A stretch of 64,000 nt of DNA from Caldisericia bacterium (lineage in GTDB: Bacteria > Caldisericota > Caldisericia > B22-G15). The notes under the pieces are model-generated. The model did no database searches, was not told the DNA's origin, and saw only the letters and a list, made by a program, of their open reading frames with translations. This document shows, one piece after another, positions 17,518-30,335 of the stretch; within the stretch, counting starts at the first letter, position 1, and the number at the start of each line of letters is the position of its first letter. The stretch lies in contig JASEFN010000001.1 of the NCBI GenBank assembly GCA_030018355.1, positions 1-64,000 on the forward strand, read 5' to 3'. The translations under genes were made by a program, and so were the position numbers.

Positions 17518-19242
17518 TTAAGGAGTTATTTTCACAATAAACTGAACACTACTTTCACTTGATTCTGGCTTTCCAATAAAATAATCAAATTTTTTAGTTA
17601 ATTCTTTCTTTTTGTTTAAATTCTCTTTTTGTTTCTCAATTTCTTTATTAGCACTTTCTATTCCAACTTTTATATTATTTATTCCATTTAATGTATCCTC
17701 AATTCCATAAAAATAGAGATTCTTAACTTTACCACCTTTTATTAAAATATTAAGTGAGTTAATTAGTTCTTTAAAACTTTCACTTATTTTATTTTGAATT
17801 AAATTTAACCCTTCTTTTAATTTATTTAAGCCAGTATTTAATAAATTAGATAAGTTATTAAATCCTGGTAAAGATTTTCCTTCAATTACACCACCATTTA
17901 CAACTTTATCTAAAGTGTCTTTCATCTTTATATTTAAATCAATAAGTGAATTTAATCCATAAAGAGTCATTTTTAAATTTTCAAGACCATTCACTATTGT
18001 TTCATATCCATCATATAATTTTTTAATATTATCCTTAAGTTCTTTCAAAGAGATTATATAAATTGTCTCATTCAATTTTCCACCATTTAATAAGATATTA
18101 ATTAAAGAACTCTCAATTTCAAGATTTTCAATTAATTTTAATTTCAAATCATCATTAATACTTTTTGCTAAATTTTTATTTATTTCATTTAAATTTTTAA
18201 TCCTATTTATAATTTCTAAATATCCATCAATTAAATTCTGAATAGATAAAAGATTTTTGTTGATCTCCTTTAAATTATTTATTATTAAATCAAAAGTTTG
18301 AGGCAACATTTTAAGAGAATTTAATTGTTGAACATCAATTCCTTTTGATATTTCTAATAAAATATTTGAGTGAAGGTTAATCCCTTGTGATATAAGCATG
18401 AGGTCAGAGATTCCTTTTTCGATTTCATTGAGATTAGATAAATCTAATTTTGTTAAATTATTTTTTATCTCTTCAACATAAATTTTTTGATATTCAATAA
18501 GTTTTGATAGTCCAATGGTTCCTTGAATTAAGTTTTTCCATAGAGATGAAAAATCTGGTAATTCAAAAGAAATAATTCCAGGAGATATAGATATTAAAAT
18601 TTCTGGTAATTCAATTTTTTCACTTGTGAATTCAAAATAAACCTCACCTTTTGGATCAAGAACTGTCATTAAACTTATTTGATATTTTTTGCCTAAAATT
18701 TGTGGTTTTAAATTATTACTTAAATTTATCTCCTTTATTTTTGATGAATCAAGAGATGAAGTTAAAACAAATATTAATGGAACTATTCCATTATTTACTT
18801 TAACTTTACTTTCTCCTTTAACTAAAACTTTGGCTTTTCCACTTTTCCCTTTTATATCTTGTGGGTTAGACTCTTTTCCATTTAGGAAATATTTAACTGA
18901 AATGTTAAACGGAAGTTCACCACTATAATTTCCTCTATAATATGTATCTTGATAATTTTTGCTTGCACCCTTAATTATTACTTTATCTTCTTTCACTTCA
19001 ATTTCACCTTCTCCAAAAATTTTTTTAATTTGTGTTAGATTTTTAATCGGATCAAAAATTTCATAATTACCTTCTCCTTTTACTCTTATCCAATCAACTA
19101 AAATTGCATCTTTAACATTTCCATATGAATCACATAAAACATAAATATTTTCATTATCATAAACTTTTATTTGAGAATTAATTGATAAAAGAGGAATAAA
19201 TATTAATGTAAGAAACAAAAATATTAAAATTATTTTCTTCAT
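17518..19242 (-). CDS. Exported coiled-coil protein of the RND exporter operon
   Basis: After an N-terminal signal sequence (IILIFLFLTLIFIPLL) there is a beta-rich domain to about residue 230. Long Leu/Ile/Asn-rich coiled-coil repeats follow to the end (NLNEINKNLAKSINDDLK and similar). There is no C-terminal membrane anchor. Comparable proteins sit beside MMPL/RND transporters of Firmicutes and may form a periplasmic or external spacer. I cannot assign a family. The ATG at 19242 is preferred because the GTG at 19248 lies within the AGGAGGTGA ribosome site. Confidence 0.65.
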   Translation of the reverse strand: MKKIILIFLFLTLIFIPLLSINSQIKVYDNENIYVLCDSYGNVKDAILVDWIRVKGEGNYEIFDPIKNLTQIKKIFGEGEIEVKEDKVIIKGASKNYQDTYYRGNYSGELPFNISVKYFLNGKESNPQDIKGKSGKAKVLVKGESKVKVNNGIVPLIFVLTSSLDSSKIKEINLSNNLKPQILGKKYQISLMTVLDPKGEVYFEFTSEKIELPEILISISPGIISFELPDFSSLWKNLIQGTIGLSKLIEYQKIYVEEIKNNLTKLDLSNLNEIEKGISDLMLISQGINLHSNILLEISKGIDVQQLNSLKMLPQTFDLIINNLKEINKNLLSIQNLIDGYLEIINRIKNLNEINKNLAKSINDDLKLKLIENLEIESSLINILLNGGKLNETIYIISLKELKDNIKKLYDGYETIVNGLENLKMTLYGLNSLIDLNIKMKDTLDKVVNGGVIEGKSLPGFNNLSNLLNTGLNKLKEGLNLIQNKISESFKELINSLNILIKGGKVKNLYFYGIEDTLNGINNIKVGIESANKEIEKQKENLNKKKELTKKFDYFIGKPESSESSVQFIVKITP

Positions 19243-19244
19243 AT

Positions 19245-21287
19245 TCACCTCCTTAAAATAGATAATTTTTGAGTTAATTTATCTAAACTTTTTGAAATAG
19301 AGGGTAAGAAAATAAGAGAAAATATTAAAGAAAGAAATGCACCTCTCCCTAAACTTCCCATCGTAAAGTTTACTAGAGGAATTTTTGATAAAATTGCTGC
19401 TGGAAGTGTCATAAGAATCATTGTCCCAGCACTTGTAATTAATGAATTAGAACTCCATTTTACACTCTCAATAACACTTTCATTTATATTTAGACCTTTC
19501 CTTCTTTCTTCTTCATATCTTGAATAAACAAGAACTGAATAATCTATTGTTGCTCCAAGTTGAATTGTATTCAACATTGTTGGAATAAAAAATGGAGAAG
19601 AAATTCCAATTAATATATAATATGCTATATTTGTCCATATTGCACCTTTAACTATAAAAATTAAAATTAATGGAACAATAAGAGATAAAAATCCTAAGAA
19701 AATTAAAATTATAATAAAGATAAAAGATAGTTTTGTTGTCTTTGTTTGATCTTCCATTGCAATTTTTTTAAGGTCAGATAAGAAAAGAGAATCACCTGTT
19801 AAATATGTATCATAAAGACCATTAATTTTAATTAAATTTTCGATTTCTTTTCTTAAAGATTCTCCTTCTCTTTCATCTATTTTATATTTTGAATAAATAA
19901 TTGCCAATTCATAATTTTCTGATAAAAATTTTTTAAAAATCTCTTCTGAAATAAATTCTTGAGGAATTAAAGGATCTAAAATTGTTGAATAGTGAACAAT
20001 TTCATTAACTCCATCAAGATTCTTTATTTTTGAAAGAAGATTTAAGAAATTATTATTTTCTCTATTTGAAACAAGATAAAGAACTTCTTTTTCTCCAAAA
20101 ATTTCATTTATTTTATTTAAAACCTCAATTGATTTTAGATCTTTTGGATAAAAATTCTTTAAATCATAAATAAGATTTATTCTATTTGACCCAAAATATG
20201 AAAAGATTATTATAAAAATAAAAATTAATGTAAATACAAAAGAGTATTTACTTAAAAATTTTCCTAACTTTTCCAACTTAAATGTAAATATTTTATGTTC
20301 TCCACCTATTGCAAATTTATCAAAAATCACAAGAAGAGAGGGTAAGAATAAAAATGTGGAAAGGAGAGAAAGCGAAACTCCTCTTACAAGAATCCAACCA
20401 GCCTCACTAAAAATTGTTATTCTTCCAAATGTCAAAGCATAAAAACCAGCAATTGTTGTTAATCCACTTAATAAAATAGGTTTAAATGTTTTTAATAGCG
20501 CTTCTTCCATTGCTTCTTCTTTTTCAAATTTTTTTCTTTCTTCAATATACCTATGGTACAAAAAGAGGGAATAATCAAGGGTTACTGCAAGTTGAAGAAT
20601 TGAAACAATAGTAAATGCAAGAAAATAAATTTCAGTTTTTAAAAAACCAGAAATACCAATATTTATTAAAACACCTGTAACCATTGAAATGAGTATAAAA
20701 ATTGGTCCAAAAATAGTTGGAAAAGTAAATAAAAGGAAAATTAAAACAAGAATAACTCCAATTAAAAAATATCTTTCAGTTGTTCCTTTAAAACTTTCTC
20801 TTAACTCTTCAGATATGACTTCACTTCCAGTAAGTGATGCATTCTCTGGTAAAACTTTTCTTAAAGAAGCAATTTGAGATGAATAATTTTCACTTTTTTT
20901 AAGTGCAACCTCAATTCTAAAATATCCATCTTTATACCAAGATTTAACCTCTTCTTTCCAAAATTCTTCTGGTAAAGAAATATCAGTGTAATCTTTTATT
21001 GAATTTATTGATTCAACAAAAGGAAGAGACTCAATTTCAAAAATAGTTTTTTCTAACTCCTCTATTTTATCTGTTTTAATAAGAATTGTTAAATTTGCAC
21101 CTCTTGAAAATTCTTTATTTAAAATTTCTATGCCTTTAATTGAATCAATATCTTTAGGAAGAAGTTTAAAAATATCATATGTAATTTTTACATTTCTGAA
21201 ATAAAAGAGTGAGATAACAATTAAAATTATAAATACAATAAAAATTATTAATCTATTTTTTACAATAAACCTAAATATACTCTTCAT
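19245..21287 (-). CDS. RND-superfamily MMPL-type exporter
   Basis: This 680-residue membrane protein has two repeats, each with one N-terminal helix, a large extracytoplasmic loop and about five helices. Conserved membrane motifs include TLDYSLFLYHRYIEER in the first half and ATIDYSVLVYSRYEEERR in the second, with the paired Asp-Tyr of MMPL/HpnN proteins. These proton-driven transporters export lipids or hydrophobic drugs. It lies between its TetR regulator gene (1 base upstream) and the coiled-coil partner gene (TGA overlapping the ribosome site). Confidence 0.9.
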   Translation of the reverse strand: MKSIFRFIVKNRLIIFIVFIILIVISLFYFRNVKITYDIFKLLPKDIDSIKGIEILNKEFSRGANLTILIKTDKIEELEKTIFEIESLPFVESINSIKDYTDISLPEEFWKEEVKSWYKDGYFRIEVALKKSENYSSQIASLRKVLPENASLTGSEVISEELRESFKGTTERYFLIGVILVLIFLLFTFPTIFGPIFILISMVTGVLINIGISGFLKTEIYFLAFTIVSILQLAVTLDYSLFLYHRYIEERKKFEKEEAMEEALLKTFKPILLSGLTTIAGFYALTFGRITIFSEAGWILVRGVSLSLLSTFLFLPSLLVIFDKFAIGGEHKIFTFKLEKLGKFLSKYSFVFTLIFIFIIIFSYFGSNRINLIYDLKNFYPKDLKSIEVLNKINEIFGEKEVLYLVSNRENNNFLNLLSKIKNLDGVNEIVHYSTILDPLIPQEFISEEIFKKFLSENYELAIIYSKYKIDEREGESLRKEIENLIKINGLYDTYLTGDSLFLSDLKKIAMEDQTKTTKLSFIFIIILIFLGFLSLIVPLILIFIVKGAIWTNIAYYILIGISSPFFIPTMLNTIQLGATIDYSVLVYSRYEEERRKGLNINESVIESVKWSSNSLITSAGTMILMTLPAAILSKIPLVNFTMGSLGRGAFLSLIFSLIFLPSISKSLDKLTQKLSILRR

Positions 21288-21288
21288 T

Positions 21289-21831
21289 TTAACCTCCCAA
21301 AATTCTTAAAACTCTTTTACTTAACTCTTTGACATCAATCATCTCATTCTCAAACAAAATCTTTCCCCACAAAGAAAGAGTAATTCCCCATAAAATAGTT
21401 GTGTCAATTTCATCAACATCTTTTTTAAAAATTTTTAAAAAATTTCTTATTTTTTCTTTTATTTCTTTTAAAAGAGCATCTCTTAAACTCTCTCTAACCT
21501 TTTTGGGAGAAAAACCTATATCTCTAATAATTGTTAAAACATATGAAGAGAATTCCTTTGCAAGTGAAATATTAAATTCAAAAAAATCAATAAGATATTC
21601 AACTTTATCCTTTTTCTCTTTTTCAATAATGCTTAAGAATCTTTTCTCAACATTACTCAATAGTTCTTTTACAATTGTTTCTAATAGTTCTTCTTTTGAT
21701 TTGAAATATGTGTAAAAACTACCTTTTGAAATTGAAGATGCTTTTGTTATCTCATCAACACTTGTTTCATTAAAACCTTTTTCTAAAAATAGTTTTAATG
21801 CCTCTTCAACAATTCTATCCTTTTTATTCAT
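21289..21831 (-). CDS. TetR-family repressor of the RND exporter operon
   Basis: This 180-residue single TetR protein has an HTH in residues 1-48 (RIVEEALKLFLEKGFNETSV, SISKGSFYTYFKSKEELLE) and a helical ligand domain. It is the first gene of the RND operon, and a 24-bp palindrome lies directly upstream, indicating autorepression relieved by an exporter substrate. No Shine-Dalgarno is visible before the ATG; the leader predicted from the promoter is about 20 bases. Confidence 0.9.
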   Translation of the reverse strand: MNKKDRIVEEALKLFLEKGFNETSVDEITKASSISKGSFYTYFKSKEELLETIVKELLSNVEKRFLSIIEKEKKDKVEYLIDFFEFNISLAKEFSSYVLTIIRDIGFSPKKVRESLRDALLKEIKEKIRNFLKIFKKDVDEIDTTILWGITLSLWGKILFENEMIDVKELSKRVLRILGG

Positions 21832-21947: not shown

Positions 21948-23174
21948 TTAAGTTGTGTAATTATAAATTAATTTGTTGTTTACTTTATAACCTTTACATA
22001 ATTTATTAATTGTGCAATCTGAACATTTTGGATTACTATGATTAAAACAATATTTGAGCCCAATATTAATGAGACCATTATCAAAATCGGCAATTGAATA
22101 ATTTTTATTAAACTCATTATTTAATTTATAAATCAATAAATTAGGAAATCTTTGAATTTCAATTACTTTGATAGTTTTTCTAACATTTTCTTTAAAAAAT
22201 TTATTTATGATATATCTATATTCTTCAAATAAATTTTCATTTATGTTATTTTTTATTTTTTTATTTCTTAAATTAGTAACTCTTATATAACTTTTCCCTT
22301 CTTTACCTTTTCCTTTTTGTATTACATTCCATTGAATGAGATCCATTTCATTCGCTAATTCAAATAAAAATCCTGTTCTAAATAATACTCTGCCAGCATT
22401 ACTATCAAAAGGAACTTCATATGATATATTTGACCATCCAGTATTATTTTTTTTAACTAAAGAAAATATACTTACATATAATTTTGCAAAGAGATGGGAA
22501 GCTTTATCACCTATAGCATTACCCAGTCCATATCTATTATGACTTTTTAAATTTTTAGTCATTAATTCTGCTGAAGGGTAAGACTCAATATATTCAACTA
22601 ATGGTTCTTCAGAAATCACATTTTGATTATTTAAATCTTTTTCTAATAAATATAAAAAAGATAATGGAACACCTATTCTATGAATTGCAAAGTCTAAGAC
22701 TTTATTTGGAACTATACCTCTTTGTGATTGTGCAAAAAATAATGAATATTTTAATGGATTTGTATTATTTTCTAAGGCCCATTCATTAGCTCTAATTTTC
22801 TTAATTGAATCATGCTGTATTAATAATTCATCTATTGCAATATTTAATTCTTTAAAAAAGTCAATTGGTCTATGTAATATTCTTATTTCTTTACGATATA
22901 ATTCGTTAATAACATTTTTTAAAAATATTCTATTTCCTTTTATATCTGGTCCTTGATCCAAAATTACACTTAATAAAATATATCTAGATAATATCTCTCT
23001 TCTAGTAAATTTTCCATCATAGTCATCAAGTTCATCACTTTTTAATCTATCATTTTCGAAGTAATATTTAAAAATTTCTACATCATTAATGGATAATATA
23101 TTTTTATTTTTTAAACCGATTTCGCACAAATTAGAAGTTAATTCGAACAAAAATTTTAAATCCATATTTATCAT
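21948..23174 (-). CDS. Putative methyltransferase-linked DNA-processing protein with endonuclease III-like Fe-S loop
   Basis: It is 408 residues. The C-terminus has four cysteines, Cys376-x7-Cys384-x2-Cys387-x5-Cys393, closely resembling the [4Fe-4S] loop of endonuclease III/MutY glycosylases (C-x6-C-x2-C-x5-C). The remaining sequence is helical, with FDSNAGRVLFRTGFLFELA around residue 250; no canonical HhH-GPD motif is obvious. It overlaps the methyltransferase stop by 4 bases. The pairing suggests a restriction or repair partner of the methyltransferase. A known relative could not be named. Confidence 0.6.
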   Translation of the reverse strand: MINMDLKFLFELTSNLCEIGLKNKNILSINDVEIFKYYFENDRLKSDELDDYDGKFTRREILSRYILLSVILDQGPDIKGNRIFLKNVINELYRKEIRILHRPIDFFKELNIAIDELLIQHDSIKKIRANEWALENNTNPLKYSLFFAQSQRGIVPNKVLDFAIHRIGVPLSFLYLLEKDLNNQNVISEEPLVEYIESYPSAELMTKNLKSHNRYGLGNAIGDKASHLFAKLYVSIFSLVKKNNTGWSNISYEVPFDSNAGRVLFRTGFLFELANEMDLIQWNVIQKGKGKEGKSYIRVTNLRNKKIKNNINENLFEEYRYIINKFFKENVRKTIKVIEIQRFPNLLIYKLNNEFNKNYSIADFDNGLINIGLKYCFNHSNPKCSDCTINKLCKGYKVNNKLIYNYTT

Positions 23175-23977
23175 TTATTAAATAAATAATTTTCAACAAT
23201 TTCTTTTGTATCTTTTAATTTATATATATTATTTTCTAATCTTTTTTTTGCAAACTCATAAGATTCTTTCACAATTTCAAAACCAATGAATTGTCTATTC
23301 ATCATTTTACTAATAAAAACAACTTGCCCTGAACCTAAAAATGGATCAAGAATAATATCATTTTCTTTGCTTGAATACATAATAATTTTTTTGATTAATT
23401 CAGATGGTAATTTTGTTGGTGTTTTTTGAGCACCAGTCCAATATTCTCTTTTTATAAACCAAACATCTTCTCTATCAAGATAGTGTAATTTTCGCCCTTT
23501 ATCATCTTTGTCATCTTTATTGTATCTTGCGTATGGATAAAACTTTCTTAATTTATCATTTTTACAAACATATAATATGTGATAATGTGAAGTAATATAT
23601 TTTCTATTAGTTACAACTCCAAATTGATATTTCCAAATTAAATGATTAACAAGTATAAATTTTTGTTCGTCTAATGCAATTAAAATATCTTTAAGATTAT
23701 TCCATCCTGAAAAAATATACATGCTACCACTCTCTTTTAATACTCTATATGCTTCTTTAATCCAATTGGTTGTAAATTTATAATATTCCTCCTTTGGTAT
23801 TTCATTATAACCCTTTATTACTCTTGATTCTTTTCTATTATAGTTGCTTTTCTTAGATTTAAAATCAATTGCAAAAGGTGGATCGGTAATAATTAAGTCA
23901 ATTGAATTAGATGGTATTAACTTCATGCCTTCAATGCAATCCATGTTGTATATTTGATTAAACTCTAAATACTTCAT
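23171..23977 (-). CDS. Beta-class DNA amino-methyltransferase (N6-adenine or N4-cytosine)
   Basis: This 268-residue protein has the catalytic motif TDPPF at residues 31-35 preceding the SAM-binding motif DPFLGSG near residue 213, the order that defines beta-class amino-methyltransferases. The target recognition region lies between (KRESRVIKGY to WTGAQKTPTK). It should methylate adenine N6 or cytosine N4 in a specific DNA site. It is followed in an overlapping frame by the Fe-S protein gene, suggesting a restriction-modification-like pair. Specificity cannot be read. Confidence 0.88.
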   Translation of the reverse strand: MKYLEFNQIYNMDCIEGMKLIPSNSIDLIITDPPFAIDFKSKKSNYNRKESRVIKGYNEIPKEEYYKFTTNWIKEAYRVLKESGSMYIFSGWNNLKDILIALDEQKFILVNHLIWKYQFGVVTNRKYITSHYHILYVCKNDKLRKFYPYARYNKDDKDDKGRKLHYLDREDVWFIKREYWTGAQKTPTKLPSELIKKIIMYSSKENDIILDPFLGSGQVVFISKMMNRQFIGFEIVKESYEFAKKRLENNIYKLKDTKEIVENYLFNK

Positions 23978-25024
23978 CTTAATATAATTTTATAATAATA
24001 ATAATTAAAATAAAGTGCCTCTTTAAGTAACGGTTTAAAATTAAAATCATAAATTATCATGATTAATCTTCTTTAAATTCTAATTTCAATTATTGATTTA
24101 ATTTTAACTTTAATTGCTCTATATTTTAATTGATTCTTTAGAATTAATATTCTATAAATTTAAATTTTTAAATAAATCCATAATCTATTTCTATAAAATT
24201 TTTAAATAAAATATGAGAATATATTCTTTTTTATCCCACTTTACATTACTTTGAAATAAAGTAATAAACATTTAATATATTTGAATAGTATTAATTATTT
24301 GTATTTGATAAACCAAAAATTATTATTCTTAATTTTATACGTTTGATTGTAAAATATAATTATTTTCTCAATATATTTTTTACAGATCTAATTCTAAAAC
24401 ATTCTGAATAATAAAAATATTAAATTATTTAAAAGTGTTTATTTTAATTTTATTTTCTAATAACTTACACTTATTATTCATTTTAATTTCTTTGTCTAAT
24501 CTAAATTTCCAATTCCTTATAGTTTAATTATCAAAGGAATTATAAAAAATAAATATCAATTATATTATCAATAGTTCTCTTTAACAAATTAAAGATTTAT
24601 TTTTTAAAACTTAACTTTTTAAAATTATTGATTCAGTACTTGCAAATATAAACTTTGATTAACAAAATATTCATTTTCTCAAATTTTATCAATGTTTTAT
24701 TAAATAATTATTGTTTACAAATATAATCATTTTTCAAAATTGACCCAAATAAGTTTTATTTTCGAATTCTTATTTTATCTTAATCTTCTTTTATTTTATA
24801 TTTTTTATTCTGCAACCCTTTTATCATTTCACATGTTTTTTCAAAGATAAATTTCTAATATTAAATCTTAGAAATTTAAAATAGATAAATTTTTAAAATA
24901 TAAAATATAATAACTGATTAATATTTTGAGTATATTTTTATTAATATGCTCTTGAAATATAATTTATACTTAAAATTCTTTGGTAGATAAGATAAAATTA
25001 ACTTTAATTTAAAACCTTCTCTAT
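23978..25024. other. Gene-free, extremely AT-rich interval of about 1 kb
   Basis: No ORF above 60 codons, no RNA gene, no long direct repeat and no CRISPR-like array can be seen. Base composition is more AT-biased than surrounding genes, with many TTTAAAT, ATATAAT and AAATTT runs. The methyltransferase promoter should lie within the first 50 bases. The rest may be decayed sequence left after loss of restriction-modification or mobile genes, or a structural AT-rich region. Everywhere else in the window intergenic gaps are under 200 bases. Confidence 0.6.
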
Positions 25025-26846: not shown

Positions 26847-29800
26847 ATGGAAGAAAAAATTCAAACAATTTATAAAGGATTGTGTCCTAATTGTGGAAAT
26901 AATATATCTTCAGAAAGACTTTTAATGGGTCTTCCATGTGATAATTGTTTAAAAGAAGAAGTCTCTAAGGAAAATTTGTGCGAATTTATTTTAGAAGGAA
27001 AAATAAAGAGTATATGTGAATTAAAACAAAATTTAAATGATTTTAAAAAGATTTTTATCTCCTCTATAAATTTTGAACCCTGGTCTCTTCAAGAAACTTG
27101 GGCAATAAGATTTTTCATGGATACCTCTTTTGCATTAATTGCCCCGACAGGCATTGGAAAAACAACTTTTGGGCTTATCTTATCAAAATATATTGTGGAA
27201 AAAGAGTTGGGGAAAGTGTATCTTATTTTTCCAACAAATCTTCTTGTAAATCAAGCAAAAGAGAAACTTTTGAGTTTTGGAGTTAATGAAGGAAAAATTC
27301 TTGCTTATTCTTCAAAATATTTTAAAACTAAAAAACTTCAGGATCAGGCTAAAAAAAGAATTAAAAGTGGCGATTTTAATATATTAATTACAACAACAAA
27401 CTTTTTATATAAAAATTTTGAAATCTTCCCTAAGGGTGAGTTTAAATTAATTTTTATTGATGATGTTGATTCTATTTTAAAGAAAGCCAAAAATATTGAT
27501 AAAATTATCTATCTTTTTGGTTTTGAAAAGAGCGATTTGGAAAAAGTTTATCAATTTATAAATTTAAAGAAAAATTTACTTAATAATGAATCAAAAGAGA
27601 ACGAAAATTTTATTAATAAATATAATGAATTGAAGGAAGAAATTGAGAAAATTAAAAATAAAAGAAAAGGAGTTTTAATTGTCTCTTCAGCAACATCAAA
27701 TCCAAAATCAACTAGAATTTTACTATTTAGAGAACTATTTGATTTTGAAATTGGTAGAACTCAAATAAGTTTAAGAAATATAGAAGAAATATATGAAAAT
27801 TTGGTTGAAAAAGATTTATATTCATTAAGTTTAGAGAGAATAAAAAAACTTGGAAATGGAGGTCTTGTTTTTCTATCAGGTGATAAAACAAAAGAGGATT
27901 TAGAGACTTACATTGATTTTTTAAATAAAAATGGAGTTAAGGCAATATCATATGAAGATTTAGATAAAAAATTGAATGCTTTCAAAAGAGGAAGAGTAAA
28001 AGTTGTAGTTGGATTTTCAAGTTTTAAAAATCCACTTGCAAGAGGTCTTGATCTTCCAGAAGTAGTTAGATATGCACTTTTTCTTGGTGTTCCAAAAATA
28101 AAAATTTATTTGAAATTCGAAAATTTTAAAGGTATATACTATTTCTTACTTTCTCTTCTTCCAATATTAACTAAAAAGAAAATTATAACAGATGAAGAAA
28201 GTAATAAATTATATAAAAACATGAAGTTTCTTGAATCATTTCTATTTATAGAAGAAAAAGATATTTCCAAAATAAAAATTTCTAAAATCGAAAAAATAGT
28301 TGAAGAGATAAAAGAAATCTTTTCAAAAGAGGAAAATTTAAAAAGATTTGAAGAATTAAAAGATATTGAAATCAAAAAAGAAAATGATGTTTTAACAATT
28401 TTTATTCCAGATATAATTGGATATGTACAAGCCTCAGGAAGAGTTTCAAGACTTTATCCAGGAGGCCTTACTAAGGGTTTATCATACATAATTGTTGATA
28501 ACATTCGTCTTTTTGAATCACTAAAAAGAAAATTAAATTGGATGTTAGAAGATTTTGAATTTAAAGAAATAGATAAAGTTAATATAGATGAAATTTTAAG
28601 AGAGATTGATAAAGATAGAGACAAAGTAAAAAGAATAAAGAAGGGTGAAAAGATAGAAGAAAAAATTGATTTTACAACTTCTCTTGTTGTTGTTGAATCA
28701 CCAAATAAAGCAAGAACAATTGCAAATTTCTTTGGAAAACCTCTTAGAAGAAAAGTTGGAGATATTGATGTTTATGAAATTTCAATAGAGAATAAATTCT
28801 TAATAATTATTGCAACAAAAGGTCATATTTTTGATCTTAATAAAGAAGAAGGCATTTTTGGAGTTTTAAAGAAAAATGGAGAGTTTATACCAATATTTGA
28901 ACCAATAGATGAAAATAGATTTAAAATAATTGAATCAATTAGAAACCTTGGAATTGAAGTGAAGGAGATCTACCTTGCAACTGATCCTGATACAGAAGGT
29001 GAAAAAATAAGTTTTGATATATTTTTAACTATAAATCCAATAAATCAAAACATAAAAAGAATTGAATTTCATGAAGTCACAAAAAAGGCATTTATAAATT
29101 CAATCAAAAATATGAGAGATATAAATTATGACCTTGTAAAATCTCAACTTCTAAGAAGAATTTCAGATCGCTGGATAGGTTTTACAGTATCACAATATAT
29201 TCAAAGAAAATTAAACTCATTGAATCTTTCTGCTGGAAGAGTTCAAACACCTGTTTTAGAGTGGATTGTAAATAGATATTTTGAAAGGAATAGAAAACTA
29301 TTTGTTGTTAGTTTAGAAATAGATGAAGAAAAAATAGATTTTGAATTTGAAGATAAAAATTTTGGTCAATGGTTTTTTGTAAATGTTAAGGGAATAAAGG
29401 TAGTAAAAGAGAGTGAAGAGATTGAGGAAAACTATATAAAACCTTTTACAACAGATACTCTTTTATCAAACTCATCAAGTAAACTTAAATTTTCTCCACA
29501 AAAAACAATGGAACTTGCTCAAGATCTTTTTGAGTTAGGATTAATAACCTATCACAGAACTGACTCAATAAGAGTTTCTGATGCTGGAGTAAAAGTAGCA
29601 ATTGAGTATATTAAAGAAAATTTTGGGGAGGAATTTATAAAGGTAAGGACATTTGAAAAAGAACTTCACGCACATGAATGTATAAGACCAACTAGAAGCG
29701 TCGATTCAGAGGAGTTAAAATCTTATATAATATACTCCAATATCCAAGGAGTAACTGATGAACATATTAAACTTTATGATCTTATTTTTAAACAATTTAT

Positions 29801-30335
29801 TGCTTCTCAAATGAGAGAGGTTAAAGTAAAAAAGATAAATATAAGATATATTCCAATTTGTGATTCAAAAGAGATGCCAGACTTAGGAAAAAAAGAGAAA
29901 AAGTTAGCACAAATTGTACAAAATGGTTATAATTTAATTTTGCCAATAAAACTTGATAAAATTTATGAGGGTGAATTTAAATTTAGAAATAAAAGTTACT
30001 ATTATAAACCAGTTTCTCCTCCATATACATTTGCAACTCTTATTCAAGAAATGAAAGAAAAGGGAATTGGAAGACCTTCAACTTATGCAATAACAATAGA
30101 CAAACTTCTTAAAAGAGGATATATTTATGAAAAAGGTGGTTTTCTTTTTCCAACACAACTTGGAATAGAGGTTATAAATTTAATAAAGAAAAGAAAAGAC
30201 ATTTACTCTTTTGTTAGAGAAAGTTATACAAAAGAACTTGAAGAAGTGATGGATAAAATAGAGAGTAGAGAGAGTGATTATAAGATTGAACTGAACAAAC
30301 TTTATGAAAATTTGAAAAGAGAAAATCTCTTATGA
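26847..30335 (+). CDS. rgy: Reverse gyrase
   Basis: This 1162-residue protein introduces positive supercoils into DNA using ATP, the hallmark enzyme of hyperthermophiles and many thermophiles. In order it has an N-terminal zinc finger (Cys13, Cys16, Cys31, Cys34), SF2 helicase-like domain (Walker A TGIGKTT at about 101-107, DDVDS as motif II, ASGRVSRLYPGG as motif VI) and TOPRIM from about 611 (VVVESPNKA; ATDPDTEGEK). The topoisomerase IA part carries catalytic Tyr902 in ITYHRTDS. The second zinc finger found before TOPRIM in some reverse gyrases is missing. Fused, full-length and intact. Confidence 0.97.
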   Translation: MEEKIQTIYKGLCPNCGNNISSERLLMGLPCDNCLKEEVSKENLCEFILEGKIKSICELKQNLNDFKKIFISSINFEPWSLQETWAIRFFMDTSFALIAPTGIGKTTFGLILSKYIVEKELGKVYLIFPTNLLVNQAKEKLLSFGVNEGKILAYSSKYFKTKKLQDQAKKRIKSGDFNILITTTNFLYKNFEIFPKGEFKLIFIDDVDSILKKAKNIDKIIYLFGFEKSDLEKVYQFINLKKNLLNNESKENENFINKYNELKEEIEKIKNKRKGVLIVSSATSNPKSTRILLFRELFDFEIGRTQISLRNIEEIYENLVEKDLYSLSLERIKKLGNGGLVFLSGDKTKEDLETYIDFLNKNGVKAISYEDLDKKLNAFKRGRVKVVVGFSSFKNPLARGLDLPEVVRYALFLGVPKIKIYLKFENFKGIYYFLLSLLPILTKKKIITDEESNKLYKNMKFLESFLFIEEKDISKIKISKIEKIVEEIKEIFSKEENLKRFEELKDIEIKKENDVLTIFIPDIIGYVQASGRVSRLYPGGLTKGLSYIIVDNIRLFESLKRKLNWMLEDFEFKEIDKVNIDEILREIDKDRDKVKRIKKGEKIEEKIDFTTSLVVVESPNKARTIANFFGKPLRRKVGDIDVYEISIENKFLIIIATKGHIFDLNKEEGIFGVLKKNGEFIPIFEPIDENRFKIIESIRNLGIEVKEIYLATDPDTEGEKISFDIFLTINPINQNIKRIEFHEVTKKAFINSIKNMRDINYDLVKSQLLRRISDRWIGFTVSQYIQRKLNSLNLSAGRVQTPVLEWIVNRYFERNRKLFVVSLEIDEEKIDFEFEDKNFGQWFFVNVKGIKVVKESEEIEENYIKPFTTDTLLSNSSSKLKFSPQKTMELAQDLFELGLITYHRTDSIRVSDAGVKVAIEYIKENFGEEFIKVRTFEKELHAHECIRPTRSVDSEELKSYIIYSNIQGVTDEHIKLYDLIFKQFIASQMREVKVKKINIRYIPICDSKEMPDLGKKEKKLAQIVQNGYNLILPIKLDKIYEGEFKFRNKSYYYKPVSPPYTFATLIQEMKEKGIGRPSTYAITIDKLLKRGYIYEKGGFLFPTQLGIEVINLIKKRKDIYSFVRESYTKELEEVMDKIESRESDYKIELNKLYENLKRENLL

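Follow-up and report, generated by a model that had tools for sequence, protein, structure and literature searches.

What does a 408-residue protein with a cysteine loop like that of endonuclease III (EndoIII) do beside a DNA methyltransferase? The two genes, here called M (the methyltransferase) and R (its partner), lie in the window analysed, a stretch of 64,000 nucleotides from a Caldisericia bacterium (contig JASEFN010000001.1). The initial annotation proposed for R either an unusual restriction enzyme of the glycosylase or Fe-S type or a mismatch-repair partner. The former is now favoured by structural matches, by stable pairing with methyltransferases and by avoidance of AGCT. We consider it probable that M and R form a mobile Type II-like restriction-modification system for AGCT, in which R is a glycosylase/AP lyase of the EndoIII superfamily that excises a normal base. 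The pairing, conservation, fold, partner exchange, gene decay and site avoidance were all computed in this study, and we infer the activity of R.

Organization of the locus

The annotated overlap of a beta-class methyltransferase with a 408-residue protein holds: both ORFs were confirmed on the minus strand, M first and then R, and share four nucleotides (Table 1), which likely couples their translation. M was identified by a Pfam profile search and by the Type II methyltransferase models of PADLOC, and its nearest solved relative in a PDB sequence search is CcrM (4e-27). The DPPF form of motif IV is the one usual in m6A enzymes. By its sequence, M is an ordinary enzyme of the beta-class N6-adenine/N4-cytosine type and is predicted to form m6A in this genome. 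The nearest homologue of M within the phylum (L011:1465-3127, 40% identity) has as its neighbour an unrelated protein of 295 aa, which might be a conventional Type II restriction enzyme.

About 1 kb directly upstream of M (23978-25020) is free of ORFs and has a G+C content of 14.7%, against a window average of 26.6%. Adjoining the pair on the minus strand (17518-21831) are a TetR-like regulator, an MMPL/RND-type transporter and another membrane-associated protein, likely one operon. The 1.4 Mb genome also encodes, on the plus strand of the window (26847-30335), a reverse gyrase-like protein of 1162 aa, and the host is therefore probably a hyperthermophile or thermophile.

Table 1. Position of the M and R genes and of their conserved motifs in the window.
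Feature	Coordinates	Strand	Evidence
M, beta-class amino-methyltransferase, DPPF motif, predicted m6A, 268 aa	23171..23977	-	PF01555 (E 1e-42); PADLOC Type II MTase; CcrM in PDB
M motif IV DPPF, residues 32-35	23873..23884	-	motif reading of methyltransferases
ATGA, 4 nt, stop of M overlapping start of R	23171..23174	-	sequence; overlaps of 4-32 nt in most relatives
R, putative restriction glycosylase/lyase of HhH-GPD/Fe-S family, 408 aa	21948..23174	-	ORF; AF2 pLDDT 87; Foldseek to EndoIII/MutY; relatives
R residues 73-77, invariant motif DQGPD, placed like the EndoIII Gln41 loop	22944..22958	-	32/32 members
R HhH-like hairpin GLGNAIGDKASHLF, residues 216-229, invariant Lys224 (EndoIII Lys120 position)	22488..22529	-	alignment; model helix 223-236; same register in hhalign, alone not significant
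R VPFDSNAGRVLFRTG, residues 254-268, invariant Asp257 (EndoIII Asp138 position)	22371..22415	-	alignment; Asp257 immediately precedes model helix 258-266
R basic insert GKGKEGKSYIRVTNLR, residues 288-303, no EndoIII counterpart	22266..22313	-	K291, Y296, R298, T300, N301 and R303 invariant in 32/32
R [4Fe-4S]-type loop, C376-X7-C384-X2-C387-X5-C393	21996..22049	-	invariant in complete relatives; hhalign to EndoIII E 4.7e-5; mutY model 19/19

Conserved motifs and predicted fold of R

The sole profile match of R is the NCBIfam model mutY, which covers the Fe-S loop (residues 349-401, E 2e-4) and matches all nineteen aligned members of the R family (best E 1.7e-7). Nothing exceeded the curated cut-offs in Pfam or NCBIfam, the Pfam HhH-GPD model (PF00730) gave no match, and none was obtained from PADLOC, PHROGs or PDB sequences. 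The first spacing of the four cysteines, X7-X2-X5, is one residue longer than in EndoIII and MutY (X6-X2-X5), and the cysteines are invariant in 31/31 complete members. This loop had been described as the only recognisable feature of R. The loop itself is real, but it is not alone, since alignment of the relatives reveals DQGPD, G-x-K224 and PxDSN, the last of which contains D257. Gln74, Lys224, Asp257 and Arg262 do not vary in any of the 32 members. In the model Lys224 opens its helix and Asp257 stands just before the next one (Table 1); Lys120 and Asp138 of EndoIII occupy such helix-start positions. The lysine suggests a bifunctional glycosylase/lyase. The Glu used by MutY has no conserved counterpart in R, the matching residue 69 varying among S, N, Q, M and E. 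The basic insert GKGKEGKSYIRVTNLR is a candidate for reading the target sequence. A separate, ordinary EndoIII is present in the same genome (L047).

The AF2 model of R built with 18 relatives reached pLDDT 87 and pTM 0.87, whereas the lone sequence gave pLDDT 35. Its best 16 PDB matches in Foldseek were all Fe-S HhH-GPD glycosylases, namely EndoIII-3, MUTYH, MutY, NTHL1 and Mig (1kea). The probability rose to 0.99 for EndoIII-3, yet E was 0.07 and TM 0.3-0.5, modest values which we attribute to two large inserts. When R was aligned to EndoIII by hhalign, the Fe-S loop alone was significant, and the HhH/Asp core was not (p about 0.08), with the hairpin and the Asp motif in the expected register. 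R thus plausibly belongs to the HhH-GPD superfamily, to judge from the Fe-S loop, the catalytic residues and the modelled fold, with a core that lacks significance in sequence. As the initial annotation held, PabI is of unrelated fold: its HALFPIPE fold is absent among the PDB matches listed for the R model, the top ones all being HhH-GPD.

No nuclease family or fold was found for R in Pfam, NCBIfam, PADLOC, PHROGs, PDB sequence or Foldseek searches, and an ordinary nuclease with the cysteines as a zinc site was dropped as a candidate. This bears also on the idea that R restricts at AGCT by phosphodiester hydrolysis, with an unrecognised active site and an HhH-GPD-like fold and Fe-S cluster that merely bind DNA. 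R does carry spare invariant acidic residues (D73, D77 and E253), and the pairing, decay and AGCT avoidance described below are all independent of the chemistry. However, besides the lack of a nuclease match in these searches, the glycosylase/lyase Lys and Asp of EndoIII are in position and invariant in R, and we regard hydrolysis as unlikely.

Relatives of R and pairing with methyltransferases

Plain single-protein queries with R, whose automatic patterns fell on unconserved stretches, found no relatives in genomes of the phylum, plasmids, phages, viral contigs or genome contigs. Three EndoIII-like stretches were read by eye in R (VILDQGPD, AIGDKASHLF and VPFDSNAGRVLFRTG), along with the cysteine loop, and a query weighted on them was run over 257 billion bases of genomes. 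Invented rows keeping the suspected motifs (alignments A1-A6) steered the degenerate patterns only; they were not folded and are not used as evidence. The weighted query returned 25 loci of the R family, mostly full length and with 41-63% identity. This outcome serves as a check on the guess, since conservation in the query was confined to the guessed motifs and the relatives recovered were full length.

The relatives come from at least a dozen phyla of bacteria and archaea. The names of their records include Omnitrophota, Thermoplasmata, Nitrospirae, Aenigmatarchaeota, WOR-3, Anaerolineae, Elusimicrobia, Methylomirabilis, Fibrobacterales, Thioalkalivibrio, Sumerlaeota, Micrarchaeota, Altiarchaeales, Nitrospina, Ignavibacterium, Dehalococcoidia and Methanocaldococcaceae, among others. 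An amino-methyltransferase adjoins the R gene in 24 of the 25 loci, and the contig of the remaining one (L044) ends inside the gene. In most cases the methyltransferase precedes the R gene and overlaps it by 4-32 nt; in two it follows.

A survey less dependent on the motifs was performed with the real alignment A8 against whole genomes. R was carried by 12/396 genomes of Anaerolineae, 1/54 of the window's phylum, and 4/35, 2/396 and 3/156 of the phyla of L020, L022 and L025, respectively. Every new full-length case examined, and two partial ones, stand beside a methyltransferase. Taken together, and excluding the window, an amino-methyltransferase is next to the R gene in 38/38 loci with readable flanks, which is far beyond chance; a solitary methyltransferase in relatives, named in advance as an argument against the pair, was not what we found. 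Among loci with readable flanks, R stands without a methyltransferase only as small remnants such as the C-terminal one of L087. The count leaves out L092, located at the end of a contig, and the N-terminal remnant L097.

The neighbourhood comparison gave no recurrent third gene at the R loci, and a three-gene system was dropped. When searched with the real alignment and with other queries, viral contigs and plasmids still yielded no relatives of R; a phage-borne origin of the R gene was considered and dropped. An empty-site comparison was made with G003, a congener from the same genus in which the pair is absent, and the flanks were not matched within 140 kb of G003. M and R appear to be a mobile unit travelling together.

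Avoidance of AGCT

If R restricts DNA, its carriers should avoid its site. Observed to expected ratios (O/E) of 136 tetranucleotides were compared in Anaerolineae between 10 carriers and 16 non-carriers. AGCT was the sole strong outlier, with a log ratio of -1.25 against -0.23 for the next tetranucleotide. Its O/E is 0.25 in carriers (0.04-0.51) and 0.85 in non-carriers (0.35-1.10), a difference with p 4e-5 by Mann-Whitney, p 1e-5 by permutation and p 1.6e-4 after one of each near-identical pair was removed. Depletion is mild in two of the ten carriers (0.37 and 0.51). The loss of AGCT is present in all flanking contexts, which indicates a four-base site. Deamination as the source of the loss was ruled out, as AGTT/AACT are not in excess in carriers. 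CTAG is scarce in carriers and controls alike and so unspecific, and GTAC was dropped as a candidate site, being no outlier with O/E 0.77 in G000.

The same tetranucleotide is depleted in the window's genome (O/E 0.20; 84 sites, 304 kb) relative to 46 short loci of the phylum (0.98). In the flanks of 19 diverse R loci the median is 0.37, compared with 0.80 in controls (p 2e-6). Depletion is strongest at L020, L022, L032, L038 and L041 (0.00-0.16), which include both m6A and m4C partners; L035 (1.11) and L034 (0.64) are exceptions, not clearly depleted. The avoidance of AGCT is a correlation with the presence of the pair, and because many words were searched and sampling was unequal, AGCT as the site of R is a strong prediction rather than a result. 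A lake archaeon which has an AGCT m4C enzyme and for which no partner is reported retains 6,224 occurrences of the AGCT motif in about 1.5 Mb (PMC6329791); methylation alone therefore need not deplete the sites.

The congener G003 has an AGCT O/E of 0.51, perhaps the relic of an earlier system or the effect of a different AGCT system. Footprints of other restriction systems were also seen, with GGCC at O/E 0.13 in G056 and one GATC where 76 are expected at L033. The avoidance might likewise come from ancestry or from another AGCT system, while the M/R pair targets something else. Such footprints, the value of G003 and the partnerless AGCT m4C enzymes common in some archaea (PMC10609329) all lend this some weight. 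We nevertheless hold it improbable, as AGCT is the consistent outlier in Anaerolineae and in the window's genome, for both partner types, and likewise at loci named Omnitrophota, Nitrospirae, Fibrobacterales and Dehalococcoidia.

Exchange of partners and decay of R

The partner methyltransferases fall into DPPF/DPPY enzymes close to M, a second DPPF group with about 33% identity, and SPPY enzymes, predicted from their motif to be of the N4-cytosine (m4C) type. All are amino-methyltransferases and no C5-cytosine methyltransferase was found among them. On the tree of the R family, where archaeal and bacterial members are interleaved, the labels of partner type switch six times, at least five of them on well-supported branches. 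The m6A and m4C methyltransferases were thus exchanged at least five times while R stayed. One conserved R with antidotes of two chemistries fits a fixed palindrome holding both A and C, and it does not fit the repair of one particular methylation by-product.

The R gene is broken while the methyltransferase remains open at L031, L040, L042, L043 and L037, by an in-frame TGA in the first two, a frameshift in L043 and loss of the C-terminus in L037. This asymmetry is merely suggestive because there are five cases and R is the longer gene, and errors in MAGs could contribute.

These data weigh against the mismatch-repair partner raised in the initial annotation and, more generally, against R as a glycosylase repairing damage from its partner's methylation in the manner of Mig/M.MthTI or Vsr. 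Most relatives of EndoIII and MutY do repair DNA, and Mig is among the fold matches. A Methanothermobacter plasmid carries such a methyltransferase/thymine-DNA glycosylase pair: M.MthTI makes m5C, and Mig.MthI repairs the deamination of m5C. The likeness to M/R is that an EndoIII-type glycosylase adjoins a DNA methyltransferase. The partners of R, in contrast, make m6A or m4C, come from several clades and are never C5 enzymes, so that no single lesion fits. Nor does repair predict an avoided site, the AGTT/AACT excess is absent, and the gene that breaks is R. A repair function is accordingly decidedly improbable.

Proposed mechanism and comparison with known systems

In the restriction system that we favour, M would methylate the AGCT sites of its own genome, giving m6A here and m4C in other lineages. 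R would scan the DNA, bind unmethylated AGCT, insert Gln74 and flip out a normal base, for which A or C are the candidates because methylation of either serves as the antidote. Asp257 and Lys224, as the Schiff-base lysine, would cleave the glycosidic bond, and beta-elimination from the Schiff base would leave the strand nicked or broken. A methylated A or C in AGCT would block R. Base excision, the leaving base, the lyase activity, protection by M and defence against phages and plasmids are all parts of the proposal. Against excision, unmodified bases are poor leaving groups and unusual catalysis would be needed; PabI proves that it is feasible.

R might instead excise m6A or m4C itself, as a methylation-dependent, demethylating or Type IV-like glycosylase with M as its regulator or counterpart. 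ROS1 and DEMETER, which are also Fe-S HhH-GPD enzymes, excise methylated cytosine (PMC10273834). Such an enzyme, however, would attack the host's own M-modified DNA, and two partner chemistries make a single methyl-base substrate unlikely; we give this very little credence.

The term Type II-like refers to the adjacent, co-inherited methyltransferase and partner and to the short palindrome avoided in the host. We think it likely, with marginally less confidence than in the system itself, that R represents a second class of restriction glycosylase, one that evolved independently, is spread across bacteria and archaea, and in which an Fe-S enzyme of the EndoIII/MutY type excises a normal base at unmethylated AGCT and m6A and m4C antidotes are interchangeable. 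If so, base-excision restriction arose more than once, scaffolds of this type are able to recognise a palindrome free of damage, and a Type II restriction enzyme contains a redox-sensitive cofactor, the Fe-S cluster. A family absent from the Pfam, NCBIfam and PADLOC libraries searched can now be named, and a direct test requires one oligonucleotide with one predicted site and two catalytic residues.

R resembles EndoIII, MutY and NTHL1 in its predicted fold, its Fe-S loop and the positions of the catalytic Lys and Asp. It differs from them in being twice the size, with conserved inserts at about 97-200 and 282-340, in its longer cysteine spacing and in its link to a methyltransferase. The predicted site is shared with AluI-type AGCT systems and with archaeal AGCT m4C methyltransferases, whose methylation is documented (PMC10609329, PMC6329791); the persistent archaeal enzymes differ in being orphans, with no glycosylase partner reported.

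In the passages searched, a 2023 review of base-excision restriction (PMC10273834) and papers from 2025-2026 (PMC12707154, PMC12366791, PMC13092281, PMC13160076) make no mention of an HhH-GPD restriction enzyme, and the restriction glycosylases they describe are the unrelated PabI/HALFPIPE enzymes only; members of the R family may be listed in REBASE as putative. By analogy, R would be a restriction glycosylase working like PabI on an unrelated fold, and outside the PabI family. That family (R.PabI, R.CcoLI and R.HpyAXII) likewise combines a glycosylase-type partner beside an amino-methyltransferase, mobility, a frequently broken R gene and avoidance of a 4-bp palindrome (PMC10273834, PMC12366791, PMC4615327). 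The differences are HALFPIPE there and an HhH-GPD-like fold with an Fe-S loop in R, the 408 aa of R, its m6A and m4C partners, and its predicted AGCT in place of GTAC, which Helicobacter avoids on account of PabI (PMC12366791). Broken R genes are also reported for PabI (PMC10273834), and mobile-element insertions are known in R.PabI homologs (PMC4615327). An IS607-type element, with a serine recombinase and TnpB, was found inside the R gene of a Methanocaldococcaceae MAG (L042:1203-3130).
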